Translations under genes and position numbers: made by a program | Part shown: positions 7,357 through 61,943 of the stretch, piece after piece | Position numbering within the stretch: position 1 is the stretch's first letter | Layout: every line of letters begins with the position of its first letter | Assembly (NCBI RefSeq): GCF_004698125.1 | Contig: NZ_SRHV01000005.1 | Location: 62,001-126,000 of the forward strand | Length of the DNA: 64,000 bases | Reading direction: 5' to 3' | From: Halosimplex halophilum | Lineage (GTDB): Archaea > Halobacteriota > Halobacteria > Halobacteriales > Haloarculaceae | The notes under the pieces: generated by a model | What the model was told of the DNA's origin: nothing | The model's database searches: none | What the model saw: the letters and a program-made list of their open reading frames with translations, nothing else

Positions 7357-7431
7357 GGGCGCGTGTTCGATCCTGTTCTGTCCGCTTCTGGTTCTGTGGC
7401 GTGAGTGGCGTGACCGTTGGACCCAGCAGGC

Positions 7432-7890
7432 GCTGAACGCCCTCGGCGCGCTCGCGGTCGCTGTCTCCGAAAATCGAAGATTTTCGGGATGACGAGAGCG
7501 CTCCGCTCTCTCGAACCAAGCGACATATCCGCGCTCTCCGCACGGCCCGCTCACGGTACAGCCGTTCGCTTCGAGGCGCTGCGCGCCTCGCACCGCGCGG
7601 ATAGGGGTCGCTCAGACGACTCCCGGCGCGAGCGCACCTCGCCCGTTCAGTCCACCAGGGACCGCCCCGCACAGCACCGCAGGGGGCCTCACACCTCCCC
7701 AGCCTCTTGCGCTGTCTGCGGGCGACCCGAGCGTCGCCCGCATGGCCCGAGGGACCGCCGGTCCCTCGCTGCTCGCAGGCTGCGGTGCTCATCCACCGTC
7801 AGAGCAAGCGCTGACGAGCCTTCGCTCGCAGGCTCGCGAAGCCCTCGCGCGATGCTGTCGCGAGTCTCGTCTCGCGACAGCGCGCGCCGG
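7432..7890 (+). repeat. Nested-hairpin intergenic element, family 1, copy A
   Basis: Non-coding structured repeat between the convergent transporter and dephospho-CoA kinase genes. The outer arms are CTGAACG (7433-7439) and CGTTCAG (7644-7650), next to GCGCGCTCGCG and a partly matching partner. The inner arms AGCGAC (7519-7524) and GTCGCT (7607-7612) enclose ATCCGCGC/GCGCGGAT. Extra palindromic modules with 3-nt loops are inserted: CCGAAAATC-GAA-GATTTTCGG at 7467-7487, GAGAGCG-CTC-CGCTCTC, CGAGGCGC-TGC-GCGCCTCG and GAGGGACC-GCC-GGTCCCTC. The tail ends in CAGCGCGCGCC like the other copies. The outer stem carries an A:T to C:G change relative to copies B and D with pairing retained. Confidence 0.8.
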
Positions 7891-7944
7891 TTCGGTTGTC
7901 GCATCGCTACGAGCGGGAGAGAGGATGCCGAGAGAGACGGACGG

Positions 7945-12640: not shown

Positions 12641-14806
12641 ATGCGCAGGGGCATCCGTCGGGAGGCAGGGTGGTCGCCGACCAGGGGGCAATCGAACGTC
12701 ATCGCGGTGGTGTTGCTGGCGGGGCTCGTCCTCGCCGGGGCGACGGTGGTCGTGGTCGCCGGCTCGACGGCGATCAACCAGGCCCAGAGCGACTCGTCGT
12801 TCGCGAGCGCCGAGCAGTCGATGCGGTCGCTCGGCGCCGAGATCGACAGCGTCTCGCGGGACGGGCAGTCGGCGGACGTACAACTCGACGCGTTGAAATC
12901 CGGCGACGCGGCGGTCGAAGAGTCCGCCGGATCGATGACCGTCACCGTCGTCCACAAAGGGTCGGGGGCGACGGATTCCCACACCGTCGAACTCGGGCGT
13001 ATCCAGTACGAACAGGGCCAGCGGACACTGGTGTACCAGGGAGGCGGGCTGTTCGAACGAACCGGGAACGGGTCGGCCGTCGTCTCCGCGCCCGAGGTGA
13101 GCTACCGCCAGGCGTCCGAGGGCGGGACACTGACGGTCCCCGTCGTCGCGGTCACGGGCGAAGCAGTCGACGACGAGGTGACCGTGGAACGGACGGCTAT
13201 CCGCGAGATCCTCCCCAAACTCGACGGCAACCCGGACACCGGCTCCGACGAATCGGTCAACCCGCTCAAACGCGGCACCGCGCTCCGGGTCACCGTCGAG
13301 AGCGAGGTCTACCGGGCGTGGGGGAGCGTGTTCGAACAGCGGATCGGGACCGGCGTCGAGTACGACCCCGACAAGGAACAGGTCTCGTTCACGCTCGATG
13401 GGCCGCCGGAACGCGGACCGCCGGTCACGCGGGCCGCGTTCTCCTCCCGGGGGGTCGACACGCACGTCGGGAAGTTCGCGGGGACGAGCTGCTACCACCC
13501 GACCAGAAGCAGTAGCTGTACGGCCGGTGACGTGTATCTGAAGTCGGCGGACGGCGGGCTCGCGAACTGTTTCACGGTCGAAGGGGACCTGGTCATCGAG
13601 CGGCTCCCGGCCAGCGGGAGCCTGTACGGGTCGTCGGGGTGCGGCGGTGCGACCATCGAGGGGAAGTCCTTTTTCGGCGAACGACGCTCGGCGAGTTCGC
13701 CGTACGAGATCAAAGGCGACGTGACCTTCGAGGGCTACACCAGCATCCACGACACGGTCACGTTCACCGCCGGCGGTGTCAATTTCGAGGACGACGTGCG
13801 GATCGACGGCAAGGTGAAGAAGATGCGCGGCGTCACCGTCGAGGAGTCGCTGTACGTCGAGCCGAACCCGAGCAGCAACGAACTGAAGATCAACGACGGC
13901 ACCGTCGTCAAGGGCGACCTCGTCGTCAACGGCCGCATCAAGGTGAACGGGAACGTGAGAGTCCACGGGGAAGTGTACGCCGAGGACGAGGTGAAAAGTA
14001 CCGGCTGGGGCGGCCTCAAGGACGAGAACGGGGACCCGAAACCGTCGTCGGAGATCCACGAGAACCTCCCGTCGTCGCAGGTGCTAGGGAAGATGCCGCG
14101 CGACCTCCAGCACATGACCACGTCCGACCGACCGAGCAGCGTCGACATGAGCAAGAAGGAACCGACGACCGGCGACAGCGCCTCCGACATCTCCTCCGGC
14201 ACGCTCGACTGTGACCCCGACGGAACGGCCGAGACGTGTCATCTCGACGCCGGGACGTACAAGCTCGACCACCTGGAACTGGGCCACGGCGACGAACTCG
14301 AACTCGACACCAGCGGCGGGAGCATCAAGATCTACGTCGAGGGCGGCGTCGAAGTCCCCAAGAACGCGGAGATCCAGGTGCTCGGGGACAACTCGAACCG
14401 GGTGGCGGTGTTCGTCGAGGGAGCGGGCGCCAGCAGTAACACGTTCCACATGTACGGCGGGTCCGGAACGGCCGGGGAAGTGACGACGCCGGACGACAAG
14501 GCGTCGAAGTTCTGGGTCTACATGGACCCGAGCGACGAGGTACGCATCAAGGAGCACTCGGACTTCACCGGCGTCATCTACGGGCCCGGTAACGGTCCCG
14601 ACGGCGACGGCGTCGACGTGTATCTCGACAAACACGCGACCGTCCGGGGCGCGGTCGTCGGCAACCTGGAGAAGTTCACGAACTCGGCGAGCATCAAGTA
14701 CGACGTCACGCTCCAGGGGCGGTCGGCGCTCATGGTGGGTACCTCCGACACGGACCGGGTGGCGTACTTCCGAACGTCCGCCCGCGTCGTCGGGGTGGAC
14801 GGCTGA
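12641..14806 (+). CDS. Large pilin-like surface protein with polymer-forming beta domain
   Basis: 721 residues. The N-terminus carries a class III (prepilin) signal: TRGQSNVIAVVLLAGLV, with a hydrophobic stretch to about residue 40 and expected cleavage before Gln. Residues 40-280 are a polar domain. Residues from about 355 hold short repeating beta turns (DVTFEGYTSIHDTVTFTAG, VTVEESLYVEPN, VVKGDLVVNGRIKVNGNVR) resembling bactofilin/polymer-forming repeats. The C-terminal domain, with SGTLDCDPDG and SDFTGVIYGPGN, resembles domains in other haloarchaeal pilin-like proteins. It is probably anchored in the membrane and extends into the S-layer space. It is convergent with an operon of five further pilin-like genes. 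A TATA-like GATTATTTC lies about 40 nt upstream. Confidence 0.8.
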   Translation: MRRGIRREAGWSPTRGQSNVIAVVLLAGLVLAGATVVVVAGSTAINQAQSDSSFASAEQSMRSLGAEIDSVSRDGQSADVQLDALKSGDAAVEESAGSMTVTVVHKGSGATDSHTVELGRIQYEQGQRTLVYQGGGLFERTGNGSAVVSAPEVSYRQASEGGTLTVPVVAVTGEAVDDEVTVERTAIREILPKLDGNPDTGSDESVNPLKRGTALRVTVESEVYRAWGSVFEQRIGTGVEYDPDKEQVSFTLDGPPERGPPVTRAAFSSRGVDTHVGKFAGTSCYHPTRSSSCTAGDVYLKSADGGLANCFTVEGDLVIERLPASGSLYGSSGCGGATIEGKSFFGERRSASSPYEIKGDVTFEGYTSIHDTVTFTAGGVNFEDDVRIDGKVKKMRGVTVEESLYVEPNPSSNELKINDGTVVKGDLVVNGRIKVNGNVRVHGEVYAEDEVKSTGWGGLKDENGDPKPSSEIHENLPSSQVLGKMPRDLQHMTTSDRPSSVDMSKKEPTTGDSASDISSGTLDCDPDGTAETCHLDAGTYKLDHLELGHGDELELDTSGGSIKIYVEGGVEVPKNAEIQVLGDNSNRVAVFVEGAGASSNTFHMYGGSGTAGEVTTPDDKASKFWVYMDPSDEVRIKEHSDFTGVIYGPGNGPDGDGVDVYLDKHATVRGAVVGNLEKFTNSASIKYDVTLQGRSALMVGTSDTDRVAYFRTSARVVGVDG

Positions 14807-27837: not shown

Positions 27838-27927
27838 GTAGCGTCGGGACTGCTGTCCGACCTGCGCCCTCCCGCTCTCGTTTTCCCGCTCCCGCCGCTA
27901 CCGATTTCGCGACTGCCGCTACCGCGA

Positions 27928-28193
27928 ACAGCGTGAAAGCCCCGGCCTGGTTCGGTCGCGCGGCTTGCTGCGCGCTTCGCTCACTGCGTTCGCTGCAGTG
28001 CTTACGGCGCCGGGCTTCCCGAACCAGGCCGCCCCTTTCATTCCCACCCGCACAGACTGGTCGGTAAGCCGATACGGGTGGGAATGAAAGGGGCGACTCG
28101 CTCGACGACGGCGGCTGACGCAAGCACCGCAGGGCGGAGCCCGAGGAGCGCAGCGACGCCCCCGAGTCGAGCGAGTCGGGGCTTTCACGCTGT
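27928..28193. repeat. Paired inverted hairpin units forming a four-way junction (family 2)
   Basis: Four perfect stems abut with no unpaired junction base: outer ACAGCGTGAAAGCCCC (27928-27943) with 28178-28193 (16 bp); left arm GGCCTGGTTCGG (27944-27955) with 28019-28030 (12 bp); apical arm 28031-28050 with CGGGTGGGAATGAAAGGGGC at 28075-28094 (20 bp); right arm GACTCGCTCGAC (28095-28106) with 28166-28177 (12 bp). The two halves are inverted copies of one unit of about 120 bp that share their ends, but the 12-bp stems differ fully in sequence and each stays self-complementary. It lies between the KH gene and an ADH gene; the rest of the gap (27838-28370) shows nothing else clear. Confidence 0.85.
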
Positions 28194-28370
28194 CTCGCAG
28201 TACGATCAGATCAGCGATGCTGTCGGCGATCGCGGGAGCTCTCGGGCTGTTCGCAGTCCAGCGATCAGTGACGTAGTCGTCGCAGTCACCACTCCACTGG
28301 GCACCAAAACTCGAACGCGAACCGGCTACAGGTACGAGGGTATTTCACGGGCGCTGCCGATACCCCGGGT

Positions 28371-30051: not shown

Positions 30052-30969
30052 CTATCGCCCGCCGCTGGCTCCGTTCGCACCGCCGCCGTTACCGGCGTGG
30101 TCCGGCGGCCCGCCGGACTCGTCGTCTTCGTCCTCGTCGTCTTCGTCCGCGTCGTCAGCGTCTTCGGCCTCGTCGGCTTCGTCTTCTTCTTCGGCCTCGT
30201 CGTCCGCTTCGTCGTCCTCCTCTTCGGCTTCGTCTCCGTCGTCGTCCGCTTCGTCTTCCTCGTCCTCGCCGTTGCCGGCGTGGTCGGGCGGACCCTGGGT
30301 TCCGTTGCCGTCGTTGCCGGCGTGGTCGGGCGGACCCTGGGTTCCGTTGCCGTCGTTGCCGGCGTGGTCGGGCGGACCCTGGGTTCCGTTGCCGTCGTTA
30401 CCGGCGTGGTCGGGCGGACCCTGCGTATCGTTCCCCGTCTCGTTGCCGGGGCCGGCGTGGGCGGGCGGTCCGCCGCCGTTACCGGGGTTGTTGGCCGTCA
30501 CCCACGACGCGATGGCCAGGCCGCGGGGCCCGTCGGTGTCGTTCATCCCCGACATGAAGCCGACGAGCTGTCGCCCGAACGGCGCCCCCGTCTCGTTCGT
30601 GTCGTCCGTCTCGTTCTCCTCGACGGCCGTCAGGTCGGCCGTCGTCGTCGCCGAGTGGTTGTCGACCGTCGCCGTCACCGACACCGTCAGCGACTGGTTC
30701 GGCGCCGGCAGGTCGGCCGTTCCGTTCGGCCCGGTAGTGTGCGTCCCCGCGCCGTCGTACGTGACGTTCTCGGTGACCGTCGTCACGTTCACCGACGCGT
30801 TCGCGACCGTGCTGTCCGCCGTTTCGTTCGTGACCGTCACGGTGACGCCCTCCTCCTCCTGGTCCACGTCGACGCTCGGCGACTCCGACGACTGCGCCGC
30901 CATCGCCGGCGCCGCGACCGAGACGACCATCAGTGCCGCCAGTATCAACGCTCGTGTGCCCTGACTCAT
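30052..30969 (-). CDS. Secreted acidic repeat protein
   Basis: 305 residues. A Sec signal (ALILAALMVVSVAAPAMA) is cleaved near residue 25. Residues 26-125 form a Thr/Asn-rich, sequon-dense beta domain resembling a carboxypeptidase-regulatory-like fold. Then come repeats of GNDGNGTQGPPDHA (14 residues each) and a stretch of about 60 almost purely Asp/Glu/Ala residues, before GGPPDHAGNGGG. The repeats carry NGT sequons. No enzyme motif was seen. It is likely an extracellular glycoprotein with an extremely acidic disordered tail. Function unknown. Confidence 0.75.
   Translation of the reverse strand: MSQGTRALILAALMVVSVAAPAMAAQSSESPSVDVDQEEEGVTVTVTNETADSTVANASVNVTTVTENVTYDGAGTHTTGPNGTADLPAPNQSLTVSVTATVDNHSATTTADLTAVEENETDDTNETGAPFGRQLVGFMSGMNDTDGPRGLAIASWVTANNPGNGGGPPAHAGPGNETGNDTQGPPDHAGNDGNGTQGPPDHAGNDGNGTQGPPDHAGNDGNGTQGPPDHAGNGEDEEDEADDDGDEAEEEDDEADDEAEEEDEADEAEDADDADEDDEDEDDESGGPPDHAGNGGGANGASGGR
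30271..30423. repeat. 42-bp tandem repeat inside the acidic repeat protein gene
   Basis: Three identical 42-base units start at 30271, 30313 and 30355; a fourth at 30397 diverges after about 27 bases. Each unit codes for 14 residues, and unit length is a multiple of three, so copy-number changes keep the frame. Identity at the DNA level points to recent expansion. Confidence 0.88.
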
Positions 30970-41014: not shown

Positions 41015-41086
41015 GCGTCTCTGGCCCCAGATCTGCGCTTTCCAGGCGCTCGCTAGCTGTCGTATCTACCGCTGGGAACAGCTAGA

Positions 41087-41357
41087 GCTGAAAGCCCTCG
41101 GCGCGCTCGCGGTCGCTGAGCGACATATCCGCGCTCTCCGCACCGCCCGCGCGGATAGGGGTCGCTCAGGCGACTAAAATGGACGCGAGCGCGCCTCGCC
41201 CTTTCAGTCCGCCAGGACTGCACGGCACCGCGACCACCCCGAACAGCAACCGCAAACGGCCACGAGCCTCCCCAGCCGATTGCGCTTCTCGCAGGCTGCG
41301 ATGCTCATCCCTCGCGCGGTTCCGTCGCGCGCATGAAAGCGCGCGACAGCGCGCGCC
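41087..41357 (+). repeat. Nested-hairpin intergenic element, family 1, copy B
   Basis: The simplest copy, showing the basic plan. Stem 1 CTGAAAG (41088-41094) with CTTTCAG (41201-41207); stem 2 GCGCGCTCGCG (41101-41111) with CGCGAGCGCGC (41184-41194); stem 3 CTGAGCGAC (41116-41124) with GTCGCTCAG (41161-41169); stem 4 ATCCGCGC (41127-41134) with GCGCGGAT (41149-41156); the loop is about 14 nt. A tail with CCTCCCCAGCCGATTGCGC and CGCGCGACAGCGCGCGCC follows. It starts 73 bases after the folA stop. The remaining gap before the next convergent gene is filled by a tandem repeat. Confidence 0.83.
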
Positions 41358-41539
41358 ACCACACAGCAAACCGCCCCGCCACCGCACAGCAAACCGCCCC
41401 GCCACCGCACAGCAAACCGCCCGCCACTGCACAGCAAACCGCCCGCCACTGCACAGCAAACCGCCCCACCACCGGACAGCAAACCGCCCCACCACCGGAC
41501 AGCAAACCGCCCCGCCACCGCACAGCAAACGGCCTCGCC
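41358..41539. repeat. 22-23 bp tandem repeat, eight units
   Basis: Eight head-to-tail units of ACCGCACAGCAAACCGCCCC-GCC type, of 23, 23, 22, 22, 23, 23, 23 and 23 bases, with single-base variants (ACCACA, ACTGCA, ACCGGA). The period is not a multiple of three, so no frame could be conserved. There are no spacers, so it is not a CRISPR array. The array is a direct extension of the GC-rich tail of the family 1 element, ending 32 bases before the next gene's stop. Confidence 0.9.
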
Positions 41540-41571
41540 GCCACGGACGGCCAGCCGACATCCGTCGGGGC

Positions 41572-48649: not shown

Positions 48650-48720
48650 GATGGTGAGCGGGTCGAGGATGCGTCCGTCGCGCTCGTTTCGAATCGACTT
48701 GACCGCACGTGACAGCAAGG

Positions 48721-49047
48721 GATGAAAGCCCTCGGCGCGCTCGCGGTCGCTGAGCGACATATCCGCGCTCTCGGCACCACCCGCGCGGATAGGGGTCGCT
48801 CAGGCGACTGAACTGCACGCGAGCGCGCCTCGCCCGTTCAGTCCACCAGGGACCGCGACCGCACGGTACGGCACCGCGACCGCCCGCACAGCACCGCAAA
48901 GGGCCATGACCCTCCCCAGCCGATTCGCGACCCGCGAGTCGCGAATCCACCGTCGGAGCAAGCTCCGACGAGCCTTCGTTCACACAGTTCACGAAGACCT
49001 CGCGCGGCTACGGTCGCGCGCATGAACGCGCGCTCCAGCGCGCGCCG
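48721..49047 (+). repeat. Nested-hairpin intergenic element, family 1, copy C
   Basis: Same plan and orientation as copy B. The 5-prime arm begins ATGAAAGCCCTCGGCGCGCT and the 3-prime arm ends CGCCTCGCCCGTTCAGTCC, so the outer stem has one mismatch here. The inner stem GCTGAGCGAC/GTCGCTCAGGC and ATCCGCGC/GCGCGGAT are intact. Tail modules include GTCGGAGC-AA-GCTCCGAC, GATTCGCGA/TCGCGAATC and CGCGCGCTCCAGCGCGCG. It starts 72 bases after the hotdog gene stop and ends 46 bases before the convergent LLM oxidoreductase gene. Confidence 0.82.
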
Positions 49048-49092
49048 ACCGCACTTGCCCGGTCGCTGTCCGACGCCGACGGTTCCCCCGGA

Positions 49093-59429: not shown

Positions 59430-60419
59430 TCAGAGCACGTCGGTATCGACCAGCGAGACGGTCTCGCCCACGTCGTGCTCGGCGGCGTACTCGTAGACGA
59501 CGTGGCTGGCCGCCACGTCCTGGATGGCCAGACCCGTCGAGTCGAAGACGGTCACGCCGGTCTCTGGCGTGCGACCCGGTTTCTCGCCGACGACGACCTC
59601 GCCGAGTTCGCCGTGGATGTCGTCGTCGGAGAGGACGCCCTCGCTCCAGGGGACGTTGATCTCCCCCGAGTGGGTGCACTGCTCGTAGTCGTCGATGACC
59701 AGGAGGGAGTCGAGCAGGACCTCGTCGGCGATCTCGTGTTTCCCGGCGGCGTCGGCACCGATGGCGTTGACGTGGGTGTGGTCGCCGACACTGTGGACGA
59801 TGGGCTCCTCGACCGGCGTCACCGTCGAGAGCACGTCACAGCGGGCGGCCTCCTCGATAGACCCGCCGCGCACGTCGAACCGGTCCTCGAAGGCCGCGAC
59901 GAACTCCGCGACCTTCTCCTGGTCGCGGTCGGCGACGACGACCTCCTCGATGGGCCGGACGGTGGCGACCGCCTCCAGTTGCGTGTACGACTGGACGCCC
60001 GCGCCGACGATACCCATCGTCCGGGCGTGCTCGACGGCGAGGTGGTTCGTCGCTACGGCCGCGGCCGCGCCGGTGCGCTTGCGCGTGATCGTCGTCCCGT
60101 CGAGCAGCGCGAGCGGGAACGCGGTCTCGGGGTCGGAGTAGACGACGGTGCCCATCACCGTCGGGAGGTCGTGGTCGGCGGGGTTGTCGGGGTGGACGTT
60201 GACCCACTTGACCGCCGCGGCGTCCCACTCGCCGGCGTCCAGGTACGCCGGCATCGACCGGAAGTCGCCGTTGTACGCCGGCAGGTCGATGTAGGACTTG
60301 GCGGGCATCTGGGTGTCGCCGCGCGCGTCGGCGGCGAAGGCGTCCTCGACCGCGGAGACGACCGCCGACATCTCCGCGGCTTCCTCGACGGCATCGGGGT
60401 CCAGAAGCAGCGTCTGCAT
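59430..60419 (-). CDS. Ornithine cyclodeaminase/mu-crystallin family protein (archaeal alanine dehydrogenase type)
   Basis: 329 residues. Features of the OCD/mu-crystallin family: MPAKSYIDLPAYNGDFRSMP with the substrate-binding Lys/Arg region, AVKWVNVHPDNPADHDLP, LLDGTTITRKRTGAAAAVAT, the nucleotide-binding motif GIVGAGVQSYTQLEAVA, VVVADRDQEKV and VHSVGDHTHVNAIGADAAGKHEI. The protein is intact and of usual length. NAD-dependent alanine dehydrogenase, ornithine cyclodeaminase and imino acid reductases share this fold; the archaeal AlaDH-type is the closest general match. The ATG at 60419 gives MQTLLLDPDAVEE. Confidence 0.87.
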   Translation of the reverse strand: MQTLLLDPDAVEEAAEMSAVVSAVEDAFAADARGDTQMPAKSYIDLPAYNGDFRSMPAYLDAGEWDAAAVKWVNVHPDNPADHDLPTVMGTVVYSDPETAFPLALLDGTTITRKRTGAAAAVATNHLAVEHARTMGIVGAGVQSYTQLEAVATVRPIEEVVVADRDQEKVAEFVAAFEDRFDVRGGSIEEAARCDVLSTVTPVEEPIVHSVGDHTHVNAIGADAAGKHEIADEVLLDSLLVIDDYEQCTHSGEINVPWSEGVLSDDDIHGELGEVVVGEKPGRTPETGVTVFDSTGLAIQDVAASHVVYEYAAEHDVGETVSLVDTDVL

Positions 60420-60549
60420 ACCGGATATACCCCCGCCGCGCACTTAGAAGTTCGACCGGTTTCGAGACGATGTGCTCGTTGAGTGGGTGTTTCTGCTGGG
60501 TTTGTCGTGGAAGGAAGTCGTATCGGGGAGAGCGCAGTCAACCACAGGC

Positions 60550-60950
60550 GCTGAAAGCCCTCGGCGCGCTCGCGGTCGCTATCTCCGAAAATCTTCGATT
60601 TTCGGGATCTCGCAGGAGCGGAGCTCCTGCGGACCTCGCGAATCTCCGATTCGCTCAGTGACGAGAGAGCGGAGCTCTCTCGAACCAAGCGGGATATCCG
60701 CACTCTCGGCACCGCCCGCTCACGGCACAGCCGTTCGCTTCGAGGCGCCCAGCGCCTCGCACCGCGCGGATAGTGCCCGCTCAGACGACTACACGAGCGC
60801 GAGCGCGCCTCGCCCTTTCAGTCCGCCAGGCGCCGCACCGCAACCCCACCGCAGACAGCCACGACCCTCCCCAGCCGATTCGCGACACACGAGTCGCGAA
60901 TCCCTCGCGCGGTTTCGTCGCGCGCATGAACGCGCGCTCCAGCACGCGCC
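60550..60950 (+). repeat. Nested-hairpin intergenic element, family 1, copy D
   Basis: The largest set of inserted modules. Outer stem CTGAAAG (60551-60557) with CTTTCAG (60815-60821). Inner stem AGCGGG (60688-60693) with CCCGCT (60776-60781), where copies A-C have AGCGAC/GTCGCT. 3-nt-loop modules: CCGAAAATC-TTC-GATTTTCGG (60585-60605), GCAGGAGC-GGA-GCTCCTGC, GCGAATC-TCC-GATTCGC, GAGAGAGC-GGA-GCTCTCTC and CGAGGCGC-CCA-GCGCCTCG. The tail with GATTCGCGAC/GTCGCGAATC follows. This copy lies upstream of a minus-strand gene rather than between convergent genes. Confidence 0.82.
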
Positions 60951-61000
60951 GACCGCACCGCAACCGCTCACCGCAACCGCTACCGCCTGTAGTTAGCGTC

Positions 61001-61140
61001 CGGCGCCGAAGGCGCCGGTTCACCGGACGCGAGCGAACGCAGTGAGCGAGTCGTCCGGCCTTTTTCACCCATGTTTTTGGACCGGGGGTGCCCGCAGCGC
61101 CCTCTGGGCGCGAGGACACCCCCGGTCGAAAAAGATGGTG
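61001..61140 (+). repeat. Hairpin element flanking usp, family 3, copy 1
   Basis: Three hairpins in series: GGCGCC-GAA-GGCGCC (from 61002); CCGGACG to CGTCCGG followed by a T run; and TTTTTGGACCGGGGGT (61074-61089) pairing with ACCCCCGGTCGAAAAA (61118-61133) with one mismatch, enclosing GCGCCC-TCT-GGGCGC. It sits immediately before the stress-protein gene. Copy 2 has the same order of parts with different stem sequences. Confidence 0.8.
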
Positions 61141-61191
61141 GCGGAACAGTTTTCCCGCTACTTGGTGTACGTTACCGTGGGTGACACACCC

Positions 61192-61740
61192 ATGTACACA
61201 GTCCTGCTGCCGGTCGACATGGCGGAGTCGCGGGCGACGGCGCAGGTAGAGACGGCGATCGGGCTCCCGAACGCGGACGAGGACGTGGCGGTGAAGCTCC
61301 TGCACGTGTTCCGGGAGGCCGACCGGGCCGAGGAGGCGTCGCCGCTCCAGCTCAGGGCGGGCGAGCACGCCCACGAGCGGCTAGAGGAGGCGGGCCTCGA
61401 CGTGGAGCCGATGACCCGGTACGGCGACCCTGCCGAAGGCATCCTGGCGGCCGCGGACGAGGTGGACGCGGACATGATCCTGCTCGGCGGGCGCAAGCGG
61501 TCGCCGCTCGGCTCGGTGCTGTTCGGCAGCGTCAGTCAGGAGGTCACGCTCGACGCCGAGCGGCCGGTGGTCGTCACCGGCGACCGCGAACAGCAGCACA
61601 TCCCGAGCCACCGCTGCCAGAGCTGCGGCGAGGAGTACTACACCGACGACGACATGACGATCCCCTCGTGTCGCAACTGCGGCGGCACGAAGGTCGAGCG
61701 CGTCGGCGAGGAGTCCGAGGAACCGACGCCGACGGCGTAA
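61192..61740 (+). CDS. Universal stress protein with C-terminal zinc ribbon
   Basis: 182 residues. The Usp domain (1-130) begins MYTVLLPVDMAESRATAQVE. The ATP-binding loop is represented by ILLGGRKRSPLGSVLFGSVS (family G.(2)G.(9)G(S/T)), followed by DAERPVVVTGDRE. The extra C-terminal part has CQSCGEEYYTDDDMTIPSCR and CGGTKVE: a four-cysteine zinc ribbon, uncommon for Usp. The ATG at 61192 is chosen; an open frame upstream runs through the hairpin element and is not coding. The gene is flanked by direct copies of a hairpin repeat. Confidence 0.88.
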   Translation: MYTVLLPVDMAESRATAQVETAIGLPNADEDVAVKLLHVFREADRAEEASPLQLRAGEHAHERLEEAGLDVEPMTRYGDPAEGILAAADEVDADMILLGGRKRSPLGSVLFGSVSQEVTLDAERPVVVTGDREQQHIPSHRCQSCGEEYYTDDDMTIPSCRNCGGTKVERVGEESEEPTPTA

Positions 61741-61802
61741 CGCGGCGCGAGAACGAAAGAAGGACAGTCAGCGAGCGGTGCGGCGGTCGGCGGGTAAGCA
61801 TC

Positions 61803-61943
61803 CGCGCGCCGGAGGCGCGCGGTTCACCGGACGCGAGGGAGCGAAGCGACCGACGCGTCCGGCTTTTTTCCCCACGTTTTTCGAGCGGAGGGTTCCCGCA
61901 GCGCGTCCGGCGCGCGAGGAACTCCCCGCTCGAAAAAGTGGGC
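61803..61943 (+). repeat. Hairpin element flanking usp, family 3, copy 2
   Basis: Parts in order: GCGCGCC-GGA-GGCGCGC; CCGGACGCG (61827-61835) with CGCGTCCGG (61854-61862) followed by TTTTTT; and TTTTTCGAGCGGAGGGTTCC (61877-61896) with 61918-61937, nearly fully paired, enclosing GCGCG-CGCGC. It ends at the stop codon of the thermosome gene. Relative to copy 1, a stem pair changes from C:G to G:C with pairing kept. Confidence 0.82.
61827..61869 (+). terminator. Hairpin plus T-run after usp
   Basis: CCGGACGCG/CGCGTCCGG, a 9-bp stem, is followed by TTTTTT at 61864-61869. Archaeal RNA polymerase stops at oligo-T tracts, so this should end the plus-strand usp transcript. The T run of the reverse strand (61933-61937) could do the same for the convergent thermosome gene. 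Confidence 0.55.

Follow-up and report, generated by a model that had tools for sequence, protein, structure and literature searches.

The hairpin modules that interrupt a highly repeated element, family 1, in Halosimplex halophilum are probably small, non-coding mobile cassettes of haloarchaea that insert into the palindromes of other repeats, with a separate process altering their hairpins in place. Such a cassette would enter, without target duplication, the palindromes of several hosts, namely families 1 and 2, PATE-like elements and TnpB (IS605) elements at their right end, and its mover would be an HUH-type single-strand transposase, or another transposase, acting in trans. The features of the window, i.e., of the whole stretch of 64,000 nucleotides analyzed, are listed in Table 1.

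Table 1. Repeat elements, inserts and hairpins, in window coordinates
Feature	Position	Strand	Remark
Family-1 copy A	7424..7659	+	imperfect palindrome with two inserts
55-bp two-hairpin cassette in A	7464..7518	-	same length as the family-2 insert
Hairpin M1 in A	7467..7487		9-bp arms, loop GAA
Hairpin M4 in A	7493..7509		GAGAGCG-CTC-CGCTCTC
46-bp apical insert in A	7550..7595		hairpins M5 and M6; absent from B and C
Hairpin M6 in A	7572..7590		CGAGGCGC-TGC-GCGCCTCG
Family-2 element	27925..28200		empty cassette site GAGGAGCG^CAGCGA
Family-1 copy B	41079..41216	+	short form without inserts
Family-1 copy C	48713..48850	+	short form without inserts
Family-1 copy D	60542..60830	+	long form
106-bp four-hairpin cassette in D	60582..60687	-	55 + 51 bp
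Hairpin M1 in D	60585..60605		arms as in A, loop TTC (inverted)
51-bp secondary insert in D	60609..60659		hairpins M2 (loop GGA) and M3 (loop TCC)
Hairpin M4 in D	60662..60682		loop GGA
46-bp apical insert in D	60719..60764		hairpins M5 and M6

Family-1 elements and their inserts

Family 1 is highly repeated in the host genome (4,467,366 bases in 7 contigs), with 281 first-look candidates, 40 of which were scored. Seven genomes of the same genus each gave at least 10 to 24 scored matches, the scoring having been stopped at 21 candidates per genome. The core was also found in Halosimplex pelagicum R2, H. salinum YPL4, H. aquaticum XZYJT29 and H. carlsbadense 2-9-1 and, beyond the genus, in Halorussus, Haladaptatus and further Halobacteriales.

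The short form is a self-folding rod of ∼130 bp (RNA energy -70.6 kcal/mol, z -3.6 versus shuffles). Its core was aligned from 83 sequences, left from 90 short forms once those more than 96.5% alike had been dropped, and the ends pair as TGAAAG/CTTTCA in 91.6% of the helix 1 cells. In this alignment, 15 of 38 pairs have changed on both sides, compared with a mean of 5.3 in shuffled controls and at most 7 with slid partners, which indicates that base pairing in the rod is preserved. The strongest covariation falls on the two N positions of the pattern by which 63 core loci were picked; because this pattern prescribes the left part of the core, conservation in that part is partly built in. The elements lie between convergent genes in 28 of 105 cases, divergent genes in 26 and codirectional genes in 40, with 11 unclear, so a terminator of convergent genes was rejected as their main role. 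Among the 94 elements with clear flanking genes, those in codirectional pairs are antisense in 29 cases and sense in 11 (p 0.006).

These data bear on an unlikely alternative, namely, that the hairpins are interchangeable domains of a functional, omega-RNA-like molecule, kept by selection on the RNA and spread by recombination between repeats, with no movement of their own. The covariation agrees with it. In the stems of the 83 cores, A.C mismatches outnumber G.T by 99 to 19, which would agree with tolerance of G.U pairs on the minus strand, and in 29 of the 40 codirectional elements it is this strand that lies in gene sense; the mismatch and gene-strand biases together would fit selection on RNA. 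However, the A.C excess is carried mainly by four alignment columns, no Rfam family matches family 1, and template switching, which can also yield covariation (PMC8794818), could keep the arms of the rod paired as well.

In the long forms of family 1, clean inserts of 55, 51 and 46 bp are added to the short form. Where the left arm of the short form reads GGTCGCTGAGCGAC, copy A has GGTCGCTG, the 55-bp cassette and AGCGAC. The insertion site, TCGCTG^AGCGAC in the short form, falls within the 3-base loop of the hairpin GTCGC-TGA-GCGAC. On the minus strand, the cassette of copy A reads TGGTTCGAG..CTCGTCATC..CGGAGA. The cassette of copy D is longer because a two-hairpin insert nests inside a 55-bp cassette, at the site GGGAT^GACGAG. 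Of 39 distinct family-1 copies retrieved from the host genome, a subset of all those present, 16 carry the cassette (7 with two hairpins and 9 with four) and 23 have none; the apical insert is found in 19.

The seven palindromes described in an earlier sequence-only reading are all found in the window, including one, GAGGGACC-GCC-GGTCCCTC, which closes by one pair more than had been stated (leaving a strict spacer of 1 base) and which lies in a segment downstream of the element (7748-7768), outside the core. That reading also proposed that modules are gained and lost as units, a proposal supported by the clean inserts, by the presence of the same type of cassette in unrelated elements, and by comparison of species. 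At one pair of orthologous intergenic sites, hairpins M1 to M4 are present in one species and none of them in the other (L009 versus L124); apices differ between species at two more (L011 versus L084 and L024 versus L105); and the whole element is missing from one side in others (copy D versus H. pelagicum and H. salinum; L012 versus L136). The flanks of such sites are 84 to 90% alike between species. Independent insertion or gene conversion may be alternative sources of these differences.

Several other repeats were noted. Upstream of the cores, one to four tandem units of ∼54-64 bp repeat the left end (GAAAGCCCTCGGCGCGCTCGCTAGC...), for example, at 41035-41085 in the window and at C2:442585-442788 in genome G000. 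Downstream lies a conserved segment (CCTCCCCAGCCGATT ... CCTCGCGCG ... GCGCGC) with exchangeable hairpins of its own, seen in the window at 7680-7895, 48900-49060 and 60850-60965; in other genomes, it stands alone, carrying the same cassette (L197 and L200). A 23-bp tandem repeat lies 3' of copy B (41327-41558), and 42-bp tandem repeats at 30225-30476 are probably coding. In the collection of family-1 elements for which both end anchors were required, two loci of other Halosimplex species (L070 and L094) have inserts in the right arm of the rod, with hairpins like GGTCGGC-TTC-GCCGACC.

Known classes of elements were considered for family 1. Its assignment to a known Rfam family was rejected, as none matched it; in particular, the covariance model of omega-RNA (RF02656) gave no match in the window at the gathering score or in 60300-61200 at E up to 1. 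A comparison with sites empty in other species, aimed at a MITE-like target duplication of family 1, encountered intergenic flanks that had diverged too far between the species for this purpose. This result, together with the paired ends of family 1, sets it apart from PATEs and from IS605 omega-RNA ends (PMC3119063; PMC12558985); its assignment to PATEs was rejected, given that these have no terminal inverted repeats. A phage origin was dismissed, there being no phage match, as was a plasmid origin, with partial matches in 8 of 72,556 plasmid records, none covering 80% of the query.

The cassette in other elements and across Halobacteriales

The cassette inserts as a unit, is common to unrelated elements, occurs nested, and has clean empty and filled sites. 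Family 2 has nothing but a similar outer end in common with family 1, and 2 of 21 distinct copies retrieved from the host genome contain a 55-bp cassette of the same type. In both, the flanks join as GAGGAGCG^CAGCGA, just as this site reads in the window copy and in others; nothing is duplicated or lost, and CAGCGA stands on the same side of the insert as in family 1. Two host family-2 copies (L224 and L250) contain other two-hairpin inserts with 3-base loops, unlike the TGGTTCGAG cassette.

In the samples taken, the cassette is restricted to Halobacteriales. The motif TGGTTCGAG-hairpin-CTCGTCATC, i.e., M4 with its linkers on the other strand, was detected in 143 of 194 genomes of this order with at least 90% completeness, representing 53 of 64 genera; the reversed control pattern had no matches in the same 194 genomes. 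In a sample of the phylum, 10 of 11 Halobacteriales genomes had the motif, compared with 1 of 69 outside the order, where the single match had no hairpin. Given one cassette with fixed linkers in different elements of so many genomes, transposition or recombination is needed to account for its distribution. Replication slippage or snap-back synthesis, suggested in the sequence-only reading, can explain inverted loops and perfect arms but not this spread.

The cassette has been found in elements resembling families 1 and 2, in others whose arms are CTCGGGGTC..GACCCCGAGG, in a distinct element with GAGGGATGAGTAGCG, and at the ends of TnpB genes. In one such case (L172), an omega-RNA (RF02656) match at 14548-14721 ends where the cassette unit starts, at 14720, a contact that speaks for the mobile cassette inside other elements and for the RNA alternative alike; in another (L188), the unit overlaps the 5' part of the RF02656 match. 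The arms flanking cassette units pair over at least 6 bp in 23 of 54 units, compared with 138 of 1,080 reshuffled pairings. The commonest cassette has the form TGGTTCGAG-hp1-CTCGTCATC-hp2, followed by GAGA or AACGAC in its two subtypes. The ends of the AACGAC subtype, GTGGTTCGAGAG and GTCGTTCGAAAG, match by eye as inverted repeats at 10 of 12 positions; the GAGA subtype has no clear inverted-repeat ends.

Several observations count against mobility of the cassette, among them the end repeats, clear in one subtype only, and the mismatch and gene-strand biases. In one element of genome G032, the unit is present in every copy among the matches listed, as though it formed an integral part of that element. 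Moreover, in the host genome a Y1 transposase was matched once and TnpB four times, with no enzyme tied to the cassettes; a search of the TnpB and Y1 loci for the mover yielded related hairpin-bearing palindromes and no demonstrated mover. At two of these host loci (L186 and L187), the IS605-type end palindromes contain two triloop hairpins each, the second having a GAA loop at one locus and TTC at the other; the palindrome at L183 is without these hairpins. Mobility nevertheless remains the preferred reading, with the cassette probably moved by a trans-acting enzyme.

Inversion, size and sequence of the loops

Loops have been inverted in place with nothing else changed. The two M1 hairpins of the window, in copies A and D, have identical arms and are exact reverse complements of each other, as had been noted from the sequence. 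In 21 distinct family-1 cassettes, the M1 loop is GAA in 11, TTC in 3, GGA in 2, TCC in 2 and GAG in 1, with one 5-base form and one ambiguous case. Three 114-bp cassette stretches illustrate the change: C1:2120082 and C1:2185668 share one sequence, from which C3:780793 departs only in the three loop bases, GAA versus TTC. As these three adjacent changes amount to an exact reverse complement, a single inversion inside the palindrome explains them best. Flipping of modules, as proposed in the sequence-only reading, is supported in the form of loop inversion: the unsymmetrical linkers around the hairpin keep their direction, so that nothing larger than the palindrome has turned, and where the arms are perfect, module reversal and loop inversion amount to a single observation. 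Likewise, in the commonest M4 arm family, 20 of the 56 copies among the matches listed have loops three changes away from GAA, and in 16 of these 20 the loop is exactly TTC.

In RNA genes, template switching has been documented to invert loops and to repair stems (PMC8794818), and a template switch inside the hairpin during replication would leave the loop inverted and the arms still paired. It is very unlikely that the hairpins arise and vary solely in this way, with nothing mobile involved: the loop inversions and paired arm changes and the documented mechanism (PMC8794818) are all in keeping with such an origin, but the same cassette with its linkers is found in unrelated elements of many genera, and the 55-bp and 51-bp inserts are exact. 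Template switching is better seen as the probable cause of changes inside cassettes that would move by other means.

The sequence-only reading had described the loops as nearly all of 3 nucleotides. This holds for the family-1 core, with 61 of 69 hairpins (arms of at least 7 bp), but not for the downstream segment, where only 44 of 234 hairpins have 3-base loops and are outnumbered by those with loops of 4 and 6; both counts include copies related by descent repeatedly, and their zone borders are loose motif matches, so that some left-arm modules fell under the apex, with the core total unaffected. In the window, there are 11 perfect inverted repeats with arms of at least 8 bp and a 3-base spacer, compared with 9 (∼3 each) in three order-2 Markov sequences of window length taken together. 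Two more hairpins of this kind, C(GAA)G and C(GGA)G, lie at 61000-61018 and 61802-61822 in a repeated pair of 119-bp stretches.

The 3-base loops are mostly of the GNA/TNC type. The matches listed, a non-random sample, comprise 150 M4 copies from 47 genomes. Although the search pattern prescribed no more than four outer pairs, the spacing in 144 copies is that of a 3-base loop, and the arms, 7 to 11 bp long, are perfect in 119. Of these 119 listed copies, 118 have a C-G closing pair and 86 have C(GNA)G or its reverse complement, C(TNC)G (52 GNA and 34 TNC), whereas such loops occur in 4 of 72 Markov hairpins. For arms of at least 9 bp in ∼1.06 Mb, 3-base loops were found at 81 places, compared with 23 in Markov sequence, and GNA/TNC loops in 22 of 49 distinct hairpins, compared with none of 23. 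Random 20-kb blocks of other genomes contained few such hairpins, but one block of G010 had four.

Chance palindromes in a GC-rich genome can be considered a negligible explanation. Many 8-bp inverted repeats in coding DNA do occur at about the Markov frequency, but the excess of 3-base loops and of the GNA/TNC type at longer arms does not fit chance, and the loop statistics, together with the presence of the motif in most Halobacteriales genomes and its absence in the reversed control, refute chance as the source of the core modules.

The occurrence of loops in both directions (52 GNA and 34 TNC) is unexpected for a strand-specific RNA and favors DNA over RNA as the form probably under selection. 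The closing pair of stable GNA minihairpins is C-G. DNA minihairpins with GNA loops are exceptionally stable (Yoshizawa 1997, as cited in PMC6479982), and in the cassette such loops may be kept for the stable hairpins that they would form on single-stranded DNA. The loop motif is the same in both; the minihairpins are known from synthetic DNA (PMC6479982), whereas the cassette hairpins lie in natural repeats, and enrichment of GNA loops in natural repeats is what this analysis adds.

Related systems and significance

The closest known counterparts are the SMR-A elements of Haloquadratum walsbyi (HqIRS42, 43 and 55), which are ∼110 bp long, are inserted without duplication in the near-terminal palindromes of IS605-type transposons and PATEs, and have a mover described as enigmatic (PMC3119063). 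Conspicuous inverted repeats at the ends and insertions peculiar to single strains are further marks of SMR-A. The cassette is likewise short, non-coding, present in many copies and free of target duplication, and some of its copies are in IS605-type or PATE palindromes, with other hosts in addition. In contrast, it measures 55 bp and reaches 106 bp only with the nested insert, and its GNA loops and order-wide spread are absent from the available description of SMR-A (PMC3119063). The three SMR-A families reportedly have no sequence similarity, and the cassette is compared with them through their published description (PMC3119063). In the SwitchRepeats of the same source, one site is occupied by two different repeats or by one repeat in opposite orientations, similarly to the alternative or reversed sequences at cassette hairpins; those involve whole elements in two strains (PMC3119063), whereas here single hairpins and 3-base loops are concerned. 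PATEs and the right ends of IS200/IS605 elements with omega-RNA serve as hosts, their palindromes containing the cassette (PMC3119063; RF02656; PMC12558985). Template-switch mutation similarly replaces a loop with its own reverse complement while keeping the arms; it has been reported in rRNA and microRNA genes, and here it would act in a mobile DNA cassette (PMC8794818). Within the open-licence part of PubMed Central, no account of the cassette in Halosimplex or other haloarchaea was found beyond PMC3119063, and the covered portion of the REP/RAYT literature (PMC12306157) yielded no haloarchaeal term.

A more far-reaching and tentative possibility is that the order Halobacteriales harbors a common pool of parasitic hairpin cassettes whose habitat is the palindromes of other mobile elements, the omega-RNA end of TnpB elements included. 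These might insert site-specifically beside CAGCGA, nest in each other and be selected for C(GNA)G minihairpins on single-stranded DNA, and their loops, inverting often enough for near-identical copies to reveal it, might make them natural recorders of hairpins formed in replication.

If the mobile nature of the cassette is confirmed, a layer of small repeats found in the available literature only for Haloquadratum (PMC3119063) would span Halobacteriales and could be found with one short motif. It would also join repeat elements, TnpB/omega-RNA transposon ends and template-switch mutation, subjects that are usually studied apart. Given that near-identical copies differ by one inverted 3-base loop, it would become directly measurable how fast hairpins drive mutation in archaea, and with the target sequence and both kinds of site, empty and filled, now defined exactly, the mover of these short repeats would become testable as well.
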